From Candidatus Segetimicrobium genomatis (GTDB lineage Bacteria; Sysuimicrobiota; Sysuimicrobiia; Sysuimicrobiales; Kaftiobacteriaceae), in NCBI GenBank assembly GCA_005882295.1, contig VBAI01000008.1, positions 1-39,304 of the forward strand: a stretch of 39,304 bases of DNA, given 5' to 3'. Position 1 is the stretch's first letter; each line of letters opens with the position of its first letter. The position numbers were made by a program, and so were the translations under genes. Below are positions 25,234 through 35,726 of the stretch, piece after piece. The notes under the pieces were generated by a model, which was given only the letters and a program-made list of their open reading frames with translations, searched no databases and was not told the origin of the DNA.

Positions 25234-26649
25234 ATGCGTGCGCCCAAAGTAGGCATCCTCACATTCTCCGACGGCAGGCCCCACGTGCACAATGAGCTGC
25301 TGCCTCTGACGCGGGAGTTTCAGGAACGCCTCGCCCGCCGGCTGCGTGAGGCGGGGTGGGACGTGGTCACGGGACGCGATATCGTCTGGACCACCGATCT
25401 GGCGAAGAGCGAGGCGCGGTATCTGGCCGCTGAAAACGTGGAGGCGACGCTCTTTAACTTCGCCATCTGGAGTTTTCCGCATCTGCCGGCGATTGCCAGC
25501 CAGTTCGCCCCCGGGCCCTTCTTGCTGTTCAGCAACGTCAACCCGCAATATCCCGGGTTGGTGGGCATGCTGGCCAGCGCCGGGGCGCTGGACCAGGTGG
25601 GCGCCTTCTGCGCGCGCGTGTCGGGGGACGTGGCCGACGATGTGGTCTTCTCCCGGGCGCTGCAGTTCCTCCGCGCCGCGGTGGCCACCAACCGGCTCCG
25701 GGGCGAGACCTATGGCCTGATCGGCGGCCGCTCGATGGGCATGTACACGGCGCAGAGCCCGCTGGATCAGTGGCGCCGGCAGTTCGGCATCGACGTGGAG
25801 CATGTCGATCAGCTTGAGATCGTCCGCCGGTCGGACCTCGTGCCGGAGGACCGGGTCGAAGATGGGTTCCAGTGGCTGGAGCAGCAGGTCGGCCAGATCC
25901 GGTACGACGGCAAGAAGTTGACGCCGGAGCTGCTGAAGCGGCAGATCCGCAGCTACCACGCGGTGCGCGACATCATCAGCGACTGGCGGCTGGACTTCTG
26001 CGGGATCAAAGGACAGCCGGAGCTGACGGATCACTTCTGCACCATGGACATCGCGGAGGCATTCTGCAACGACCCGTATGACTGGGAAGGGCCGCACGAC
26101 CCCATCGTCTGCGCCACGGAGGCCGACATGGATGGGGCCCTGACGATGGAGCTGTTCAAGCACGTCGCCGGCACGCCGGTGCTCTTCGCCGACGTCCGAC
26201 ACTACGATGCTGCCGACAACGTCTGGGACCTGTGTAACTCCGGACAGCACGCCACATATTTTGCCGGGCGGTCCTTCGATCCCAAGGTGAACCTGCCGAA
26301 AGTGCGATTCTATCCGGAGATCATCTACTTCCCCGCCGGCGGCGCATCGGTCGCGCACATTGCCGCCCCCGGGCCGGTGACGCTGGCCCGCCTGGCGCGG
26401 CGGCAGGGACGGTACTGGATGGCCATCGTGCCCGCCGAGTTCGTTGAGTTTCGCGACGCCGTAGCCTGGAAGAAGGCTGAGGCGACCACCCTGGAGTGGC
26501 CGCACGCGTTCGCGAGGTTCCGGGTGACCCCTGAGGTGTTCCTGGCCTCATACGACAGCAACCACATTCACGGCGTCTATGGCGACTACGTGCAGGAGCT
26601 TCTCTGGATCTGCCGCATCCTGGGTCTGGACTCACACGTATTTGCCTGA
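25234..26649 (+). CDS. L-fucose/L-arabinose-isomerase-family protein (FucI-like)
   Basis: A 471-residue aldose-ketose isomerase-like protein. Glu296 (CATEADMDGALTM) and Asp320 (LFADVRHYD) have the same 24-residue spacing as the Mn ligands Glu337 and Asp361 of E. coli FucI; His444 (SNHIHGVYGDY) is a candidate third ligand. It is about 120 residues shorter than FucI. Members isomerise L-fucose, L-arabinose or related sugars; some act on sulfoquinovose in transaldolase-type pathways (from memory, not shown here). The AraB-like kinase follows after 15 bases. Substrate open. Confidence 0.87.
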   Translation: MRAPKVGILTFSDGRPHVHNELLPLTREFQERLARRLREAGWDVVTGRDIVWTTDLAKSEARYLAAENVEATLFNFAIWSFPHLPAIASQFAPGPFLLFSNVNPQYPGLVGMLASAGALDQVGAFCARVSGDVADDVVFSRALQFLRAAVATNRLRGETYGLIGGRSMGMYTAQSPLDQWRRQFGIDVEHVDQLEIVRRSDLVPEDRVEDGFQWLEQQVGQIRYDGKKLTPELLKRQIRSYHAVRDIISDWRLDFCGIKGQPELTDHFCTMDIAEAFCNDPYDWEGPHDPIVCATEADMDGALTMELFKHVAGTPVLFADVRHYDAADNVWDLCNSGQHATYFAGRSFDPKVNLPKVRFYPEIIYFPAGGASVAHIAAPGPVTLARLARRQGRYWMAIVPAEFVEFRDAVAWKKAEATTLEWPHAFARFRVTPEVFLASYDSNHIHGVYGDYVQELLWICRILGLDSHVFA

Positions 26650-26664: not shown

Positions 26665-28305
26665 ATGCCCAAGCACACCATCGGGATCGACTTTGGAACG
26701 GATTCGGCCCGCGCCGTGCTGGTCGACGTGGCCAGCGGCCGCGTGGCCGCGACGGCCTCGGTGCCTTTCCCCCACGGCGTGATCGATCGCAGCCTCCCCG
26801 GACAGTCCGACCACCTTCCTCCGGACTGGGCGCTGCAGCATCCCGGGGACTGGGTGGCGGCCGCAGAACAGTTGCTGAGGACGATGGCGCAGCACACAAA
26901 CCCCGATGACATCGTCGGCCTCGGGGTCGACTGCACGTCGTGCACGGTGTTGCCGGTTACCGCCGAGGGCACGCCGCTGTGTCTGCAAGCGGACTTTGCC
27001 CGCGACCCGCACGCCTGGCCGAAGTTGTGGAAACATCACGCCGCGCAGCCCTATGCCGACCGCATCAACGCCGCACGCGCCCGCGCCGGCGGTGCGTTTC
27101 TGGAGTTCTACGGCGGGAAGACCTCGTCGGAATGGTTGTGGGCGAAAGGGTGGCAGGTGCTCGCAGAGGCGCCCGCGGTGGCCCGTGCCACGGCCCGCTG
27201 GATCGAAGGAGGAGACTGGATCGTCTGGCAGCTGACCGGCACTGAGATGCGCAGTGCCTGCCAGGCGGGGTACAAAGCCCACTGGCAGAAAGACTCCGGC
27301 TACCCTGAGACCGCATTCCTGCGCGGCCTCGATCCCGCCCTGCCCGAGTGGCTGGAGCGTCTGGCTCCTCCCCATCCAGTGGCCCGGAAGGCCGGGGGAT
27401 TGGTGGGCGCGTGGGCGGCTCGCACCGGCCTGCATCCCGGCACCCCGGTCGCCGTCGCGGTGATCGATGCACATGCGGGGATGCCGGCCGTCGGCGTGGC
27501 AGAGGCCGGCCAGATGGTGGCCATCATGGGCACGTCGACCTGTCACCTGCTGGTCGATCCCCGCCGGTTCGCGATTCCCGGGATTTCTGGGGTGGTCGAG
27601 GACGGCATTGTGCCCGGGCTGTTTGGCTACGAGGCGGGCCAGGCGTCGGTCGGCGATATCTTCCAGTGGTTCGTGCGCAGTGCCGTTCCCGCGCACGTCG
27701 GCACCGGCGACGCGGCGTACGAGACTCTGGCAGCGCAGGCGGGACGGCTGCGGCCGGGTGAGGCAGGCGTGCTGGCCCTGGACTGGTGGAATGGATGCCG
27801 GACCCCGCTGGTCGATGCCGATCTGTCCGGCCTGCTGGTCGGGCTCACGGTGACGACCGAGCCGCACGAGATCTACCGGGCGTTGCTGGAATCGACGGCG
27901 TTCGGCACACGGCGGGTGATCGAGACCTTCGAGGCCGGGGGGCTGACCATCAATGAGGTGCTGGCCTGCGGAGGGCTGGCTGAGCGGAACGCGCTGCTGC
28001 TCCAGCTCACCGCGGACATCATCGGCCGGGAGGTCCTGGCAGCACCGGTGCCGCATGCCTCCGCCGTGGGAGCCGCCATCTACGCCGCCACGGCCGCGGG
28101 TGTGTCGGTGGGTGGCTATGCGGATCTCCGCGATGCGATCCGGCGGATGGGGAGCCGGGAGCGGATCGCGTACCGTCCGCGGACAAGCGAGCAGCGTCTC
28201 TACGAGTCTCTGTACCGCGACTATCTCGACCTGGCGCGCCATTTCGGCGAGGGCGGCACGGCGCTAATGAAACGCCTCCGCCGCCTGCGCGCCGGCTCCG
28301 GGTAG
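26665..28305 (+). CDS. FGGY carbohydrate kinase, ribulokinase (AraB)-like
   Basis: A 546-residue sugar kinase of the FGGY fold. It follows AraB closely: IGIDFGTDSARAVLVD at the start, LGVDCTSCTVLPV, then ADFARDPHAWPKLWKHHAA, YGGKTSSEWLWAK, GTSTCHLL and EAGQASVGDIFQWF. E. coli AraB phosphorylates L-ribulose and several other ketoses. It would phosphorylate the ketose made by the isomerase encoded just upstream. No araD-type epimerase or classical AraA is in the window, so an ordinary arabinose pathway is not complete here. Confidence 0.9.
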   Translation: MPKHTIGIDFGTDSARAVLVDVASGRVAATASVPFPHGVIDRSLPGQSDHLPPDWALQHPGDWVAAAEQLLRTMAQHTNPDDIVGLGVDCTSCTVLPVTAEGTPLCLQADFARDPHAWPKLWKHHAAQPYADRINAARARAGGAFLEFYGGKTSSEWLWAKGWQVLAEAPAVARATARWIEGGDWIVWQLTGTEMRSACQAGYKAHWQKDSGYPETAFLRGLDPALPEWLERLAPPHPVARKAGGLVGAWAARTGLHPGTPVAVAVIDAHAGMPAVGVAEAGQMVAIMGTSTCHLLVDPRRFAIPGISGVVEDGIVPGLFGYEAGQASVGDIFQWFVRSAVPAHVGTGDAAYETLAAQAGRLRPGEAGVLALDWWNGCRTPLVDADLSGLLVGLTVTTEPHEIYRALLESTAFGTRRVIETFEAGGLTINEVLACGGLAERNALLLQLTADIIGREVLAAPVPHASAVGAAIYAATAAGVSVGGYADLRDAIRRMGSRERIAYRPRTSEQRLYESLYRDYLDLARHFGEGGTALMKRLRRLRAGSG

Positions 28306-28431: not shown

Positions 28432-29925
28432 GTGATGAGGCGACGCGTCAGTTGGCTGCTGGTGTCGATCTTGCTCCTGCTCCCGTTGGCGGGAGTGACA
28501 CCGGCAGCGTCGCAAGGGAAACCGTTTGACGGCGTGACGGTGAACGTTCTCACCTTTACGGGTCCGCAGATCGCCGAACCCCTGCAGCGACGGGGTCCAG
28601 ACTTCGGGAAATTGACCGGGGCGAAGATCAACGTCATTACGGTGCCGTTCAGCGATCTCTATCAAAAGGTCCTCACGGACGTGGCCACCGGCACCAACAG
28701 TTACCAGGCGTTTGTCTTCGACCCCCAATGGATGGCCGACTTCGTGACGCCGGGTTACCTGGAGGAGCTCACCAGCCGCGTCAACGCCGACAAAGCACTG
28801 CAGTGGACCGACATCATGCCCTTCTTCCGCAACTTCAGCGCCACCTATGGAGGGAAGATCTACACGGTTCCGCTGGATGGCGACTTCCAGATGGTGTACT
28901 ACCGGACTGATCTGCTGCAGCAGGCCGGGCTGAAGCCGCCCCAGACCTGGGCGGACTATTTCAAGATCGCTCAAACCTTCAACAAGAAGGATCTCAACGG
29001 CGACGGGACGCCAGACTTCGGGTCGTGCATCGCCAAGAAGCGAAACGCGCAGTCCTACTGGATGGTGTGGTCCGTCGCCGCGGGGTACCTGCAGGCCAAG
29101 GGCACGCGCGAAGGGTCATTTTTTGATGCCGACACCATGAAGCCGTTGACAAACAACGAGGCATTCGCCGAGGCGCTGCGCGTGTACGTCCAGACAGGGC
29201 AGTACGGCCCGCCCGATGAGTTGAACTGGGATGTCGGGGACTCGCGCTCTGGTTTCGTTACCGGCCGGTGTGCCCTGAGTATCGACTGGGGCGACATCGG
29301 GCCTCTGGCGGTCGACCCCAAGACGTCGAAGGTTCAGGATAAGGTCGGCGCCGTCATCCTGCCGGGCAGTCCCCGCGTGCTGGACCGCAAGACCGGGAAG
29401 CTGGTCGCCTGCACCGTGCAAAAGTGTCCCTACTCCACGGGCGGCGTGAACCATGCGCCGTTCGCCGCCTACGGGGGATGGTCGGGTGCCATCAACAAGG
29501 CCGCTCCGGCCAAGGTGAAGGACGCGGCCTACGCCTTTCTCTCCTACATGAGCCAGCCGGCGCAATCCAGCACCGATGTCACCATCGGGATTACGGGGTT
29601 CAACCCATACCGGCGAGCGCACTTCACGAATCTTGCACCGTGGCTAAAGTCGGGGATGAGCGCAGCTGCGGCGAAGAACTACCTCGGCGCGATCTCGGCC
29701 AGCCTGAATAGCGCCAATATGGTGCTGGACCTACGCATCCCGCAGAACCAGCGGTACCAGCAGATTGTGCTGGACACTGCTATCGCCAAGATGCTGGCCA
29801 AGGAACTCAACATCGACCAGGCGATGAAGGAGATCACCGACGGCTGGGAGGCCATCACCAACGAACTGGGCCGAGATACGCAGTTGAAGGCCTACCGGGA
29901 GAGCCTGGGGATTCCCACGAAGTGA
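28432..29925 (+). CDS. Sugar ABC transporter substrate-binding protein (family 1)
   Basis: A 497-residue exported binding protein. The signal peptide is clear (MRRRVSWLLV, hydrophobic core, cleavage near PAASQG). Family-1 features are TWADYFKIAQTFNKKDLNGDG, VYYRTDLLQQAGLKPP and the C-terminal TDGWEAITNELG. DLNGDGTPD looks like a calcium-binding loop, as in several binding proteins of this group. Start is GTG 28432 or ATG 28435, both behind AGGAGGTGA. Two permease genes follow, with GTGA overlap to the first. Confidence 0.93.
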   Translation: MMRRRVSWLLVSILLLLPLAGVTPAASQGKPFDGVTVNVLTFTGPQIAEPLQRRGPDFGKLTGAKINVITVPFSDLYQKVLTDVATGTNSYQAFVFDPQWMADFVTPGYLEELTSRVNADKALQWTDIMPFFRNFSATYGGKIYTVPLDGDFQMVYYRTDLLQQAGLKPPQTWADYFKIAQTFNKKDLNGDGTPDFGSCIAKKRNAQSYWMVWSVAAGYLQAKGTREGSFFDADTMKPLTNNEAFAEALRVYVQTGQYGPPDELNWDVGDSRSGFVTGRCALSIDWGDIGPLAVDPKTSKVQDKVGAVILPGSPRVLDRKTGKLVACTVQKCPYSTGGVNHAPFAAYGGWSGAINKAAPAKVKDAAYAFLSYMSQPAQSSTDVTIGITGFNPYRRAHFTNLAPWLKSGMSAAAAKNYLGAISASLNSANMVLDLRIPQNQRYQQIVLDTAIAKMLAKELNIDQAMKEITDGWEAITNELGRDTQLKAYRESLGIPTK

Positions 29926-31139
29926 CCGGAGAGGGCAGCACATCTCGAATGTCTAAGGCGGTCGATCGCCCCGGGGCGGAGGAGATCCCCTCCGCCCCGG
30001 GAGCGCGGCGCATCAAGACTGGGGCAGGCTGGGGGGCGGCGCGCCTCCGGGCGGCGGCAGACTGGCCGGCGCGACAGGTGACCACGTCGTTTGTGCTCCC
30101 GGCCGTCCTGTTGCTCTTCTTCCTATCCATCTTTCCGCTGCTAGTTTCGGCCTACCTCTCACTCACCCGCTTCCAGTTTGTGCCTGGTGGGTTCGCATTG
30201 CGGTGGGTGGGCCTGGCCAACTATGGCAAGCTGCTGGTCGGCATTGAACAGTCTCATTTCCTCGGGGTGCCGAAGCCTCCGACGGTAGTGGGATGGCTGC
30301 TGTTCGGCTTGGCGGCGTCCGTCTTGCTGCTTTTCGCGGTGCGAGGGATCACGTCGGCGTCGGGCCGTCGCGGAGTAGTCGGGCGGGCCGCTTTTGCCGT
30401 GGTGGCGGGAGCAGGCATCTGGCTGGCCGTGCGCACGCTCACTCCGGGGGGGTTTCCCGGCACCCTGCTGACCACACTGATCTATGTGGTTGTCGGTATC
30501 ACCGTCCAATACTGGCTGGGGCTGTGGCTGGCATTTCTCTGCGCTCAGGAGGTGGCCGGCCGGCGCTTCTTTCGGGTGGTCTTCCTGCTGCCGATGATGA
30601 TCACGCCGGTCGGCATCGCCTACACCTTTCGCATTCTGATGGATCTTGGGAAGGGGCCGTTTGCCCCTGTGTGGCGGGCGCTGGGCCTGGCGGAGGTCTC
30701 CTGGGCCAACTACGCGTGGGGCGCGCGGCTCGTCGTGATGCTCGGTGACATCTGGCAGTGGACGCCCTTCATGTTCATTGTCTTGCTGGCCGCTCTGGAG
30801 AGCCTGCCTGCGGAGTTGATCGAAGCAGCGATGGTGGACGGCGCCAGCCGATGGCAGCTCTTTTGGAGGATCTCCTGGCCACAGCTCATCCCGGTGACCT
30901 CCACGCTGATTCTGATCCGCATGATCGAGGCGTTCAAGATCATCGACCTGCCCAACGTGCTGACCAACGGTGGTCCAGGTACCGCGACTGAGTCGCTGAC
31001 GCTGCACGCCTTCATGGCCTGGCGCACGCTGGACATCGGCGGCTCGGCCGCCGTGGCCTACATGTTGCTGTTTGTCGTGACCTTCGCCGCGCTGTCGTAC
31101 GTCAATCTGGCGCACCGCCGGCTGGCCGAGGCGGCCTAG
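29922..31139 (+). CDS. Sugar ABC transporter permease (MalF/UgpA-like) with extra membrane segments
   Basis: First inner-membrane permease of the sugar importer. The EAA loop is EAAMVDGASRWQLFWRISWP. At 405 residues it is about 100 longer than the family norm. The extra part is mainly between the first outer loop and helix 2: WLLFGLAASVLLLFAV and AFAVVAGAGIWLAV, joined by a basic loop. GTG 29922 overlaps the binding-protein stop (GTGA); ATG 29949 is an alternative. A 13-base hairpin lies in the first codons (29970-30001). One base before the second permease. Confidence 0.92.
   Translation: MTGEGSTSRMSKAVDRPGAEEIPSAPGARRIKTGAGWGAARLRAAADWPARQVTTSFVLPAVLLLFFLSIFPLLVSAYLSLTRFQFVPGGFALRWVGLANYGKLLVGIEQSHFLGVPKPPTVVGWLLFGLAASVLLLFAVRGITSASGRRGVVGRAAFAVVAGAGIWLAVRTLTPGGFPGTLLTTLIYVVVGITVQYWLGLWLAFLCAQEVAGRRFFRVVFLLPMMITPVGIAYTFRILMDLGKGPFAPVWRALGLAEVSWANYAWGARLVVMLGDIWQWTPFMFIVLLAALESLPAELIEAAMVDGASRWQLFWRISWPQLIPVTSTLILIRMIEAFKIIDLPNVLTNGGPGTATESLTLHAFMAWRTLDIGGSAAVAYMLLFVVTFAALSYVNLAHRRLAEAA
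29970..30001 (+). promoter_or_regulatory. Very stable hairpin at the binding-protein/permease junction
   Basis: A 13-base perfect stem (29970-29982 CCCGGGGCGGAGG with 29989-30001) and loop AGATCC. It begins 45 bases after the binding-protein stop and sits within the first codons of the permease as annotated. Such structures between binding protein and permease genes often protect the upstream mRNA and lower permease expression. Confidence 0.6.
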
Positions 31140-31140
31140 G

Positions 31141-32166
31141 ATGGCACGGGTGTGGCGCGTCCGGCGAGCCCCGACCGCGCTGCCGGCATGGCTGGCGGTG
31201 GTGTTCTACGCCGCGCTGGTCACCTGGGCGGCGGTGGTGCTCTTCCCACTGTACTGGATCGTGGTCACGTCGTTCAAGCTGCCGATCCACGTGTATGCCG
31301 GTCCGGTGTACCTGCCGTTTGTAGACTTCATGCCGTCGCTGCACGCCTGGCGGTATCTCTTTGTCGACCTCCGGAACGATACCCTCCGGCCGTTTGAGAA
31401 CACTGTCATCGTGGCCCTGGTGAGTTCCACACTGGCCCTTGTCCTCGGCACCGGCGCCGGGTACGGTCTGCTGCGATTTCACTACCGGCCGCGCCTCAGC
31501 GCCATCCTGCTGTTTACCGCCACTGCCGTGCTGGTGATCGCGGCAATGGCCGAACGAGTCCACGGATTGGCGGCGATCGGCGGCGGGGTGTTGCTGTTTC
31601 TGCTGGTGCGGGCCGTGCTGGGGCGCAGCGGGCGCACAGTGGGCAACGACGACATCGCGTTCTGGATGATCTCCCAGCGGATGCTGCCGCCGGTGGCGGT
31701 GGTGATTCCCATCTACGTGATGTTTCAGCGGCTGAGTTTGCTGGACACCCGGGCCGCGCTGATCATCACGTATACTGCCGTGAACCTGCCCATCGTGGTG
31801 TGGTTGATGCGCGACTACTTCCGCAACATTTCGCTGGAGCTGGAAGAGAGCGCCGCCATCGACGGCGCGTCACCGTATCGCATCTTCTGGTCGATCGTAT
31901 TGCCGCTGGCCACGCCCGGTCTTGCCGCAACGTTTTTGCTCGTGCTGGTTTTCTCGTGGAATGAGTATTTGTTCGCGTTGTTTCTCACCAGCGCGAACGC
32001 GCAGACCCTGCCGCTGAGTATCGCGGCACAAAACGCCACGCGCGGTCCGATGTGGTGGTACATGTCGGTGCTGATCCTCATCATGATCACCCCCGTCATC
32101 GCCATGGCCATCGCCCTGGAACGCTATATTGCCAAGGGCCTCCTCGTGGGCGCGCTCAAGGGATGA
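31141..32166 (+). CDS. Sugar ABC transporter permease (MalG/UgpE-like) with extra membrane segments
   Basis: Second inner-membrane permease. The EAA loop is EESAAIDGASPYRIFWSIVLP. At 341 residues it is about 55-60 longer than usual. The extra part separates the normally adjacent motifs GYGLLRFHYRP and DDIAFWMISQRMLPP and contains two hydrophobic stretches (AILLFTATAVLVIAAMA and LAAIGGGVLLFLLVRAVL). ATG 31141 follows the first permease by one base; the stop overlaps the aldo-keto reductase start (ATGA). No ATPase gene is in the operon, so a shared MsmX/UgpC-type ATPase encoded elsewhere is probable. Confidence 0.92.
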   Translation: MARVWRVRRAPTALPAWLAVVFYAALVTWAAVVLFPLYWIVVTSFKLPIHVYAGPVYLPFVDFMPSLHAWRYLFVDLRNDTLRPFENTVIVALVSSTLALVLGTGAGYGLLRFHYRPRLSAILLFTATAVLVIAAMAERVHGLAAIGGGVLLFLLVRAVLGRSGRTVGNDDIAFWMISQRMLPPVAVVIPIYVMFQRLSLLDTRAALIITYTAVNLPIVVWLMRDYFRNISLELEESAAIDGASPYRIFWSIVLPLATPGLAATFLLVLVFSWNEYLFALFLTSANAQTLPLSIAAQNATRGPMWWYMSVLILIMITPVIAMAIALERYIAKGLLVGALKG

Positions 32167-33125
32167 TTCGCAGGCCGTTGGGATCCACCGGCCTGCTGGT
32201 CACCCCCCTGTGCATCGGGTGCGGCGCGCTGGCCAGCATGCCCGAGGATTTCGGCTATGCCGTGCCCGAGGCGCAGGCGCTGGCCACGCTGCGCCTGGCA
32301 TTCCAGAGCCCGATCAATTTTCTCGATACCGCCGCGGCCTACGGAGACGGGGAGAGCGAGCGCCGGATCGGCCTGGTGCTGCGGGAACTCGGCGGCCTGC
32401 CCGCCGGCTACGTTGTGTGCACCAAGGCGGACCGCAATCTGCGGACCGGTGAGTTCAGCGGCGAGCAGATCCGGCGTTCCGTCGACCGCAGCCTGCGGCT
32501 GCTGGGGCTGGACCGTCTGGCGCTGGTGTTCTTGCACGATCCCGAACACACCACGTTTGAACGCGTCATGGCCGGCGGCGGGCCGCTGGAGGTCTTGCAG
32601 CGGTTCAAAGACCAGGGCGTGATCGAGCACCTGGGGATCGCCGGAGGGCCGGTCGACCTGCTGCGCCGCTACGTGGACACCAGGGCGTTTGAGGTCGTGA
32701 TCACCCACAACCGCTACACGCTGCTGCATCGCAGCGCAGAGCCGCTGATCGACCATGCCACCAGGATGGGCGTGGCCGTCCTCAACGCGGCTCCCTACGG
32801 CAGTGGCATTCTGGCCAAAGGGCCCGAGGCGTACCCGCGGTACGCGTACCGGGAGGCGGCCACGTCTGTGGTGGAGCGTGCCCGGCGTATGGCCGGCCTC
32901 TGCCGCGAGGCCGGCGTTCCGCTCGCCGCGGCCGCGTTGCAGTTTTCCGTGCGCGATCCGCGGATCGTTTCCACGATTGTGGGTGTGAGCCGTCCCGAAC
33001 GCATCGCGGACACAGTGGACCTGCTCACCCGGCCCATCCCTGACGAGCTCTGGCCGCGGCTGGATACGCTGGCCGAACGGGAAGGGGATCCGGAGGCCGG
33101 CGGCAAGTCACGGGTGCAGAGATGA
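32163..33125 (+). CDS. Aldo-keto reductase (aldose/L-fucose dehydrogenase-like)
   Basis: A 320-residue AKR with the complete tetrad Asp55 (FLDTA), Tyr60 (AAYGDGESE), Lys88 (VCTKAD) and His125 (FLHDPEH). It resembles aldose 1-dehydrogenases of the L-fucose/D-arabinose/L-galactose group, which oxidise free sugars to lactones with NAD(P). ATG 32163 overlaps the permease stop as ATGA; an open frame back to 32052 lies inside the permease and is rejected. Suggests an oxidative branch, or oxidation or reduction of an aldehyde product made by the aldolase. Confidence 0.9.
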   Translation: MIRRPLGSTGLLVTPLCIGCGALASMPEDFGYAVPEAQALATLRLAFQSPINFLDTAAAYGDGESERRIGLVLRELGGLPAGYVVCTKADRNLRTGEFSGEQIRRSVDRSLRLLGLDRLALVFLHDPEHTTFERVMAGGGPLEVLQRFKDQGVIEHLGIAGGPVDLLRRYVDTRAFEVVITHNRYTLLHRSAEPLIDHATRMGVAVLNAAPYGSGILAKGPEAYPRYAYREAATSVVERARRMAGLCREAGVPLAAAALQFSVRDPRIVSTIVGVSRPERIADTVDLLTRPIPDELWPRLDTLAEREGDPEAGGKSRVQR

Positions 33126-33892
33126 CGACGGTCGCCGTGGTGACCGGCGCTGGCCAGGGCATCGGGCGCGCCATCGCCCGCCGGCTCTGCGGTGACGGAT
33201 TTGCCGTGGCGCTGGTGGACCTCAATGCGGGTGGGTTGGCCGAGACGGCAGAGGAACTCGGGCGTGACGGCGCGCAGACGCTGCAGGTGCAGGCGGACCT
33301 GACAGAGATCGGGAACATCGCGCGCGCGATCGACCAGGTCGGGGAGGCGTGGGGCCGCATCGACGCGCTGGTCAACAACGCGGGACGGGAAGTCACCAGG
33401 CCGTTTCTCGAGACCACGGAAGCCGATTGGGACGCGATGCTCACTCTCAACCTGCGGACCGTGTTCTTCGCCACCCAGCTGGCGGCGCGCGCCATGATCG
33501 CCGGCGGCGTACACGGCCGGATCGTCAATATCGCCTCGATCGCTGGCCGTTCCGGGCGGGCCGACCAGGCGGCCTACGGGGCGGCGAAGGCCGGAGTCAT
33601 CAGCGTCACGCGCTCGGCCGCCCTGGCCCTGGCTGCTCGCGGGATCACCGTGAACGCGGTCTGCCCGGGCGTGGTGGACACGGCCATGACACAGCGCATC
33701 CACGACATCCGGTCCAAGATGGCCGGGATCAGCCCGGAGGAGTCCCTGCGGCGCATGATCGCGCGCATCCCCCTCGGGCGCATCGCCAGCCCGGACGACG
33801 TGGCCAGGGCCGTGGCATTCTTCTGCTCGCCGCAGGCCGAGTATGTGACCGGCCAGGCGCTCAACGTCTGCGGCGGGATTGAGATGGACTAG
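33122..33892 (+). CDS. Short-chain dehydrogenase/reductase
   Basis: A 256-residue classical SDR. The nucleotide motif TGAGQGIG is at residues 8-15, NNAG at 85-88, and the catalytic Ser139, Tyr152 and Lys156 are in place; VCPGVVDTAM follows. Asp33 after the second strand (LVDLN) suggests NAD. Probably oxidises a sugar, sugar alcohol or lactone-derived hydroxyl group in the sugar pathway. ATG 33122 overlaps the aldo-keto reductase stop (ATGA). Last gene of the main sugar operon before the repeat. Confidence 0.92.
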   Translation: MTTVAVVTGAGQGIGRAIARRLCGDGFAVALVDLNAGGLAETAEELGRDGAQTLQVQADLTEIGNIARAIDQVGEAWGRIDALVNNAGREVTRPFLETTEADWDAMLTLNLRTVFFATQLAARAMIAGGVHGRIVNIASIAGRSGRADQAAYGAAKAGVISVTRSAALALAARGITVNAVCPGVVDTAMTQRIHDIRSKMAGISPEESLRRMIARIPLGRIASPDDVARAVAFFCSPQAEYVTGQALNVCGGIEMD

Positions 33893-33899
33893 TTGTGTT

Positions 33900-34049
33900 T
33901 GTCATTGCGAGGCGCGTAGCGCCGTGGCCGCGCAGGGAATTCAATTTTGTCATTGCGAGGCACGAAGTGCCGAAGCAATCTCCGGTCCGGCGCTAGATTG
34001 CTTCGCTCCACCCTGCACCATATGGTGCAGGCCTACGCTCGCAATGACA
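33900..34049. repeat. GTCATTGCGAGG palindromic repeat: one truncated and one full copy
   Basis: The full copy (33948-34049, 102 bases) begins TGTCATTGCGAGG and ends with nearly its complement (12 of 13 bases). Inside are an 11-base inverted repeat (CGAAGCAATCT 33971-33981 with 33995-34005), a small hairpin GGCAC-gaa-GTGCC (33959-33971) and a 20-base perfect palindrome (34012-34031). A truncated copy (33900-33923) repeats the first 13 bases and has GGCGC-gta-GCGCC in the hairpin position. The wording is common to dispersed repeats of many bacteria. No transposase is present. Confidence 0.75.
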
Positions 34050-34104
34050 GATTGAGTGTCTGGAGCGACGGCCCTGCCGGCGCTCGATGACAGAGGGTTG
34101 CGCC

Positions 34105-35268
34105 ATGCGTGAACTGCATGTTGCCCTAATCAGCGGCCCGCAGTATGACCGGCTGGCGCAGCTGCTGCCGGCGTTTGAGCGCCGGCATGGATACCGCGTC
34201 AGCGTCGAGGTCCAGCTGCCCCACGTCGAGTTGAACGCCCGCATGGCCGCCGACCTGGGCACTCCGCACGGGCCGTATGACCTCATCTCCACGCACACCA
34301 AGTATGCGCCGTCGCAGGCCGCGCATCTCCGCCCGCTGGATGAGCTATTAGCCGCGGAGGACCTGGCGGATTTTTTCCCGCGTGTTGTGGAGTTGTGCCG
34401 CATCAACGGGATGTTGCTGCAGCTGCCGCGGAACTTCGACGCCCGTCTGTTGTTCTATCGCGCCGATCTCATCGCCGCCCCGCAGAGCTGGGAGGACGCC
34501 GCCGCGCAGATGGCCCGCCACGCCCGCCCGGGGTTCTTTGGGTTCGCGTTTCCCGGCAGGCATTCCGGGCTGTTTGGCACCTTTTATGAACTGTTGGGGA
34601 TGGCCGGTGGGGACCTGTTCGATGCGCACCTGCGCCCCATCTTCAACGACGCCGCGGGCATCTGGGCGCTGCGGTTCTTGCACCGGCTGCACACCCTCGA
34701 CCGGGTCACCCCTCCGGACCTGCTGCAGCGCTGGTACTACGACGAGGTCTCAGAAGAATTCCGCCGGGGCCACGTGCTGATGGTCGGCGACTGGCCGGGC
34801 TTCTATGGCCTGTACAAAGACCCACAGACGTGCGCGGTGATCGAGCAGTTCGATACGGCTGTCTACCCGGCCGGCCCGGCCGGGGTGCGCAAATCCTACG
34901 CCGGCTGTCACTCATTTGCGATTCCAAAGGCCGCGCCGGATGTCCAGGGGGCGCTCCTGCTGCTTCACTATCTCATCAGTCCCGAGGTGCAGTACGTTGA
35001 GGCGTCTCGGAGCGGGCACACGCCGGTCCGCCGCACAGTGTTTGACCGGGTGAAGGGCGAGCTGCCCGAGGGCAGCCGAGACGCCCGGCGGATGGCGGCG
35101 CTGGAACGGACCATCGAGCATTACGCGATGATTCCACCAAAGTTTGCGCGCTACCCGATGGTGGAAGACATCCTGTGGTCAGGCGTGCAGCAGGCCATCA
35201 CCGGGGCGGTGACGCCCCAGGCGGCACTGCAGGCAATGGAGCGGCAGGTGGAGGAGGCGCTGCGATGA
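34105..35268 (+). CDS. Solute-binding-protein-like protein (family 1) without a signal peptide
   Basis: A 387-residue family-1 binding-protein fold (PAFERRHGYRVSVEV, LPRNFDARLLFYRADL, GHVLMVGDWPGFYGLY, LHYLISPEVQYVEASRSG). ATG 34105 has AGAGGG seven bases upstream. The protein starts MRELHVALISGPQYD, with no hydrophobic leader, and an in-frame stop at 34045-34047 excludes a hidden signal peptide upstream. It may be a cytoplasmic binding protein or have lost its leader next to the repeat. Overlaps the VOC gene (ATGA). Confidence 0.85.
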   Translation: MRELHVALISGPQYDRLAQLLPAFERRHGYRVSVEVQLPHVELNARMAADLGTPHGPYDLISTHTKYAPSQAAHLRPLDELLAAEDLADFFPRVVELCRINGMLLQLPRNFDARLLFYRADLIAAPQSWEDAAAQMARHARPGFFGFAFPGRHSGLFGTFYELLGMAGGDLFDAHLRPIFNDAAGIWALRFLHRLHTLDRVTPPDLLQRWYYDEVSEEFRRGHVLMVGDWPGFYGLYKDPQTCAVIEQFDTAVYPAGPAGVRKSYAGCHSFAIPKAAPDVQGALLLLHYLISPEVQYVEASRSGHTPVRRTVFDRVKGELPEGSRDARRMAALERTIEHYAMIPPKFARYPMVEDILWSGVQQAITGAVTPQAALQAMERQVEEALR

Positions 35269-35726
35269 TCCGGGGCCTGTGGCATGTTTCGTTCACCGTC
35301 AGCCACCTGGAACGCTCCGTGGAGTGGTACACGAAGGTGCTGGGGTTGGAGTATGTCCGCGGACAGGTGCAGGACAACGCCTACACGCGCGCGCTGGTGG
35401 GATTTCCCGACGCCCGGCTCAAGGTGGCGCAGCTGCGGATTCCCAACCTGACCATCCCGGTGTCGCGGCACCACATCGAACTGGTGGAGTACGAGCATCC
35501 CCGCGGTGCGGCGATTCAGCTCGCGACGAACTCGCCGGGGGTCGGGCACTGGGCGTTCGTCGTTGACGACATTCACGCCGAGGTCGCCCGTCTCCGAGGG
35601 CTCGGCGTCCGCTTCAAGTCTGAATCCCCGAATCTCATCACCGAGGGTGTGAACCGGGGCGGGTACACGATTTACTTCCTGGATCCGGATGGGATCACGC
35701 TGGAATTTATGCAGCCTCCCGCCTAA
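35265..35726 (+). CDS. VOC (glyoxalase)-family metalloenzyme
   Basis: A 153-residue vicinal-oxygen-chelate protein with two beta-alpha-beta-beta-beta modules. A 2-His-2-Glu metal site is seen: His7 (GLWHVSF), Glu72 (HHIELVEY), His95 (GVGHWAF) and Glu147 (ITLEFMQ). Members include glyoxalase I, epimerases and ring-cleavage dioxygenases; the reaction here is unknown. ATG 35265 overlaps the upstream stop (ATGA). Its TAA shares CTAA (35723-35726) with the convergent Gfo/Idh gene stop. Confidence 0.88.
   Translation: MIRGLWHVSFTVSHLERSVEWYTKVLGLEYVRGQVQDNAYTRALVGFPDARLKVAQLRIPNLTIPVSRHHIELVEYEHPRGAAIQLATNSPGVGHWAFVVDDIHAEVARLRGLGVRFKSESPNLITEGVNRGGYTIYFLDPDGITLEFMQPPA

Follow-up and report, generated by a model that had tools for sequence, protein, structure and literature searches.

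A conserved leaderless solute-binding protein that probably works inside the cell among sugar-catabolic enzymes

Solute-binding proteins (SBPs) are regarded as the part of an importer that lies outside the cell, and they are annotated accordingly. The same fold is also found in enzymes, e.g., NMT1/Thi5 and thiaminase I. An SBP-type domain inside the cell is described for the cyanobacterial NrtC and CmpC, whose C-terminal SBP-like domain is intracellular and thought to bind solute and regulate (PMC11349869, PMC6603209). SBPs of S. meliloti are the subject of a further paper (PMC3454389). Searches of open-licence PMC text found no paper on point for leaderless or cytosolic SBPs, and none for CaiB/CoA-transferase with SBP and fucose.

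Here we analyze a gene that encodes an SBP fold without an export signal, termed SBPc, in a window of 39,304 nucleotides, the whole stretch of DNA under study, from Candidatus Segetimicrobium genomatis. Our preferred reading, to which we assign a probability of roughly one half, is that SBPc is a cytosolic sugar-binding protein, a formerly exported importer SBP that lost its leader once and whose present role is to serve the co-translated enzymes of sugar catabolism.

The gene and its cluster

The cluster in the window contains PfkB and FSA-type aldolase genes on the minus strand, followed on the plus strand by a FucI-like isomerase, ribulokinase, SBP1, two permeases, AKR, SDR, SBPc and VOC. 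Specifically, the plus-strand genes encode an L-fucose-isomerase-like sugar isomerase of 471 aa, which scores under the NCBIfam cut-off (25234–26649), a ribulokinase exceeding both NCBIfam cut-offs (26665–28305), the normal importer binding protein SBP1 with its Sec-type leader (28432–29925), the CUT1 permeases 1 (29922–31139) and 2 (31141–32166), an aldo/keto reductase (AKR, 32163–33125) that overlaps the start of an SDR oxidoreductase (33122–33892), and, beyond SBPc, a VOC/glyoxalase-family protein (35265–35726) whose start overlaps the SBPc stop by 4 nt. Unrelated to the cluster, an ORF at 3–935 of the window resembles, as judged by eye, the end of an intein-interrupted replicative helicase (DnaB).

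SBPc itself spans 34105–35268 of the plus strand, stop codon included, and encodes 387 aa. The initial annotation placed the start at ATG 34105, with AGAGGG 7 nt ahead, and argued that an in-frame stop at 34045–34047 excludes an upstream signal peptide. Both points hold: the ribosome-binding site AGAGGG is at 34092–34097 and a TGA is read in frame on the plus strand at 34045–34047. A further in-frame ATG at 34087 would add just MTEGCA to the protein, and no leader. The proposed binding-protein fold is likewise borne out by Pfam and PDB matches. SBPc belongs to the SBP_bac_1/SBP_bac_8 fold family, exceeding both Pfam cut-offs (SBP_bac_1, E = 8e-17, 62.6 bits against a cut-off of 26; SBP_bac_8, E = 6e-16, 59.6 bits against 27), and it matches the sugar-binding proteins 6dtq (E = 7.6e-24) and 1eu8 (E = 6.6e-20). 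Because the AlphaFold model, made from a 3-row alignment, has a mean pLDDT of 41, the binding pocket is judged from sequence only.

Absence of the leader among orthologues

Of 43 genomes from the phylum, seven carry an SBPc orthologue (G000, G001, G003, G007, G008, G009 and G040), with scores of 654–741 bits versus at most 148 bits for the next SBPs. The G001 orthologue (86%) lies at L042, the single locus that the related-locus search gave. In G005 we observed a C-terminal SBPc remnant (L084:9960–10205), behind ribulokinase and 13 nt off the contig end, and G002 is uninformative on the absence of SBPc as its contig stops inside permease 1. Outside the phylum, a profile search gave no SBPc at the thresholds used in sets of 3, 40, 195 and 398 genomes; the zeros of the two largest sets are weak because scoring was limited to part of the first-look candidates in each genome, and an empty result obtained without a known positive has little weight in general.

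None of the seven orthologues has a leader, whichever start codon up to 60 codons upstream is tried; leaders were called by a hydrophobicity scan rather than SignalP, and twin-arginine motifs were read by eye. The maximum hydrophobicity over 11 residues is 1.23 in the orthologues, compared with at least 2.64 in 30 Sec-type SBPs of the window's genome. That genome also provides a control. Among its 35 SBP_bac_1 matches, 30 have a Sec-type leader, four have a Tat-type RR motif, and SBPc alone has neither, i.e., the Sec, Tat or lipoprotein leader expected of an ABC-importer SBP is present in 34 of the 35 and missing from SBPc.

The DNA immediately upstream of SBPc is repetitive. Repeats make up most of the 212 nt that separate the SDR stop from the SBPc ATG, and at 33898–34094 a TGTCATTGCGAG-type inverted-repeat element is present in nested copies, with no strand assigned: one copy at 33898–33924, an inner inverted-repeat element at 33948–34049 (arms 33948–33959 and 34038–34049) and a tail copy at 34080–34094. 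The repeat was originally said to end at 34049, which is correct for the inner inverted repeat, but the copy-like tail reaches 34094, inside the ribosome-binding site of SBPc, and a further copy begins at 33898. The repeat is multi-copy, with 46 matches in the genome at E ≤ 1e-3, query copy counted.

Could the repeat have removed the leader on insertion, leaving SBPc to decay? The repeat does lie directly 5' of the gene, as the initial annotation emphasized when it suggested that the leader had been cut off, and the G005 remnant shows that gene loss is possible. However, the two comparisons suggested at the time both came out against this idea. The nearest homologues start without a leader in all seven genomes, and the same gene order, AKR-SDR-SBPc-VOC, is found without the repeat in G003, where SBPc is leaderless too and the SDR stop is followed after 5 nt by the ATG of MREL. 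Given this repeat-free 5-nt spacer, the repeat was inserted in the spacer of an already leaderless gene. In G001, the spacer ahead of SBPc is filled by related yet different repeats, and a TAA stands one codon ahead of the ATG. Nor does the gene decay: by the Nei-Gojobori method dN/dS of SBPc is 0.13 versus G001 and 0.17 versus G003, inside the range of 0.06–0.21 seen for AKR, SDR and VOC in the same comparison. SBPc is thus under purifying selection, its status as a pseudogene is rejected, and loss of the leader through the repeat is refuted by the G003 locus. Many positions are invariant in a six-row SBPc alignment, from which G008 was omitted because its sequence contains unread bases.

Coupling to enzymes and independence from the importer

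At all seven loci the next gene 3' of SBPc is an enzyme gene, located −4 to +3 nt from the SBPc stop. This gene is VOC in G000, G001 and G003, AKR in G007 and an FSA-type aldolase in G040. In G009 and G008 we observed a PDH E1 alpha-beta-like fusion directly 3' of SBPc (L039:1691–3988; L040:467–2164, minus strand). The coupling to VOC that was first proposed therefore stands for three genomes, with the 4-nt overlap, but not for the other four. Because the partner gene varies between VOC, AKR, the PDH-E1-like fusion and FSA aldolase, no single enzyme is an obligate SBPc partner, and VOC in that role is unsupported. AKR is present in 6 of the 7 SBPc genomes versus 1 of the 36 others (Fisher p = 8e-6, inflated by kinship): it is missing in G040, a 69% complete genome, lies on a different contig in G008, and occurs without SBPc in G004.

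The permeases of the cluster belong with SBP1, and SBPc lacks the cognate permeases in its locus that an ABC-importer SBP would have. A duplicate of SBP1 was considered and rejected, as the two proteins are 24% identical and far apart in the tree. In four of the seven genomes (G007, G008, G009 and G040) SBPc and the SBP1-permease genes are arranged divergently, and in three it is co-directional with the importer genes, the cluster of G001 being split across two contigs. In G003 the importer has been exchanged altogether (L037:7091–10836): an RbsACB-type system, consisting of an RbsA-like ATPase, a permease-length ORF and a ribose/allose-type SBP, takes the place of SBP1 and its permeases, while SBPc and the catabolic genes stay. 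No SBP1 orthologue was found anywhere in G003, a 77% complete genome. G037 has SBP1 and both permeases on a 161-kb contig without SBPc, and its importer matches that of the window at about 56–69% (permease 1 at 56%, SBP1 and permease 2 at about 65–68%).

These arrangements bear on whether SBPc could be exported without a leader and feed the importer like any other SBP. Importer genes are found in the same cluster in most SBPc genomes, but the importer exchange in G003 leaves SBPc unaffected, and with Sec-type leaders on 30 and Tat-type leaders on 4 of the 35 SBP_bac_1 matches of the window's genome, such a route is very improbable. From the lack of a leader in seven genomes and the place of the gene among sugar-catabolic enzymes, SBPc probably works inside the cell and is not part of an importer. 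A cytoplasmic binding protein, such as a sensor or an enzyme partner, was also among the original suggestions; conservation, gene coupling and importer-independence support it as a predicted role.

A protein inside the cell could still act on the importer. As a cytosolic sensor, SBPc would bind the imported sugar and report its level, e.g., by braking the importer as the NrtC/CmpC domain is thought to do. Cytosolic SBP-type regulatory domains have a precedent there (PMC11349869, PMC6603209), and the SBPc residues that would bind the ligand look kept. However, SBPc survives the change of importer type in G003, the related importer of G037 is present without it, and it is co-translated with enzymes rather than with an ATPase, to which it is not fused either. 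Because the importer is exchangeable without loss of SBPc, a sensor is the less likely explanation, and we consider it unlikely though worth keeping in mind.

Descent and other leaderless binding proteins

The best SBPc matches among plasmid records (103 records) are exported SBPs of Alphaproteobacteria, with about 28% identity over 97–99% of the length and a best E of 4e-35. Members of this sister clade include U8C43_12105 on pSymB of Sinorhizobium meliloti and proteins of Nitratireductor, Martelella and Roseibium. At all four sister loci read, the protein has a Sec-type leader if the upstream in-frame start is used, and the gene has two permease genes and a UgpC-type ATPase gene as neighbours, together with genes of the deoxysugar type for a mandelate-racemase-family protein, L-rhamnose mutarotase and amidohydrolase; an L-fuconate dehydratase falls inside the stretch read at two of the four. 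For two exported SBP genes of Alphaproteobacteria, the start given in the annotation (L096:5962 and L097:5935) is within or past the signal peptide. The exported relatives P0004 and P0005 have no Pfam match at E ≤ 1e-3, which counts against their being ordinary SBPs; their alignment to SBPc extends over nearly the full length, and their loci contain permeases and an ATPase. In two trees the exported SBPs join SBPc with support of 98/99 and 100/98, the SBPc clade itself having support of 100/99 and 100/98, and a single loss of the leader on the SBPc stem would explain the data.

Comparison of the seven SBPc with five exported sister sequences gives 51 positions that do not vary in either set, among them H40, H64, R109, D112, E162, D213, D229-W230-P231-G232 and H269; at a further 57 positions SBPc is invariant and the sisters differ from it. 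The former, in stretches that we take to be ligand loops from the MBP fold, suggest that the binding pocket has been retained; the latter suggest an altered task. Such a change would also fit an SBP-fold enzyme, in which the former binding cleft is now catalytic on the pathway sugar, in line with the enzymes of this fold named at the outset. However, we recognized no catalytic motif in SBPc, many of the shared invariants lie in the presumed ligand-loop stretches, and no pathway step is known to be missing, so that a catalytic SBPc appears distinctly improbable.

Returning to the preferred reading of a cytosolic sugar-binding protein, the ancestor of SBPc would have been the exported binding protein of an ABC importer, and its leader would have been lost once, ahead of the diversification of the clade. 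The protein would now be located in the cytosol, where its ligand may be an L-fucose/D-arabinose-type aldose or an oxidized form, as the sister clade and the FucI-like isomerase, ribulokinase and AKR of the cluster suggest. It would most likely capture this ligand, or present it to the neighbouring dehydrogenases, and keep its free level low. The scheme builds on what we count as established, namely the fold, the absence of a leader in the members found, purifying selection, coupling to enzymes, decoupling from the importer and the invariants common with the exported sister clade.

Two more leaderless SBP clades, most of whose members adjoin CaiB/MaoC genes, are found in Alphaproteobacteria, Bacteroidota and a haloarchaeon, within clusters of the fucose type. 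In the alphaproteobacterial clusters a second SBP gene overlaps or adjoins CaiB/BaiF and is leaderless, with N-termini such as VSAVRLKGMTWSHPRGYEP. One member of this CaiB-coupled family is matched by 145 plasmid records, and the same scan finds no leader in 10 of 10 cases (nine loci, and Rufibacter via another query). SBP_bac_8-type genes of this kind, each beside a gene for a CaiB/BaiF CoA-transferase or for mannonate dehydratase, were observed at L096:2755–3903, L099:2825–3961, L100:6993–8102 (minus strand), L102:3998–5128, L103:4013–5113, L104:3995–5143, L105:3995–5140, L106:4004–5176, L107:4016–5110 and L109:2452–3612; their annotation is that of extracellular or ABC-transporter binding proteins. 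In Microvirga the genes coupled to the leaderless SBP are mannonate dehydratase and a member of the gluconolactonase family. The third clade (L105:7439–8671, L109:6001–7248, L110:5992–7227 and L111:3992–5179) was observed in clusters of the fucose type from Bacteroidota, an erythrobacter and a haloarchaeon; it occurs in Persicobacter, Rufibacter, Croceibacterium and the haloarchaeon Halostagnicola; the annotated start of the Rufibacter protein is seemingly too late. In Persicobacter and Rufibacter two CoA-transferase genes are flanked by both leaderless types, and the cluster also contains a RhaT symporter, MaoC and Gfo/Idh/MocA and, in Persicobacter, an alpha-L-fucosidase; no ABC permease or ATPase is annotated within the 20.0-kb and 13.2-kb stretches read. 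Against a simple story, ABC importer genes do lie near leaderless SBPs in Croceibacterium, Sinorhizobium K101 and the other alphaproteobacterial clusters.

The three leaderless groups form separate clades in a tree whose deep branches are weak and where some long branches meet: SBPc is not in the CaiB/MaoC-associated clade, and P0003 gives no meaningful alignment with SBPc. The separate clades presumably reflect independent losses of the leader. We tentatively propose, as a plausible generalization, that the importer SBP fold moved to the cytosol several times independently and became a stand-alone subunit in the catabolism of deoxysugars or sugar acids, beside oxidoreductases in the clade of the window or beside CoA-transferases in Alphaproteobacteria, Bacteroidota and haloarchaea, with some clusters lacking an ABC importer. 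A conserved leaderless clade that survives importer exchange would mean that the fold has another job in sugar catabolism. Because annotation pipelines label such proteins 'extracellular', the class is hidden in plain view and, if our proposal is true, many 'extracellular solute-binding protein' labels need re-reading. A role as carrier, sensor or enzyme can be tested on single proteins, including the analogous leaderless proteins of Sinorhizobium meliloti, a species open to culture and manipulation.

Compared with known systems, SBPc is closest to the exported SBP of alphaproteobacterial L-fuconate-type clusters, its sister clade, with about 28% identity and the 51 common invariants. That protein, however, has a Sec-type leader and adjacent permeases with a UgpC ATPase, whereas SBPc is leaderless and co-translated with enzymes. 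By sequence SBPc shares its fold with MalE3 (6dtq), TMBP (1eu8) and SmoF (7nbz), which are importer binding proteins; SBPc has neither a leader nor dependence on an importer. The leaderless SBPs paired with CaiB/BaiF and MaoC resemble it in the SBP_bac_8/1 fold, the lack of a leader, the tight coupling to enzymes and the deoxysugar-type clusters, but they form distinct clades, and CaiB was not seen in the SBPc clusters. The NrtC/CmpC domain has in common with SBPc an SBP-type domain inside the cell, a location predicted for SBPc. However, that domain is related to NrtA/CmpA and fused to an ABC ATPase, whereas SBPc is a free-standing ORF of the SBP_bac_1 type that is coupled to enzymes.
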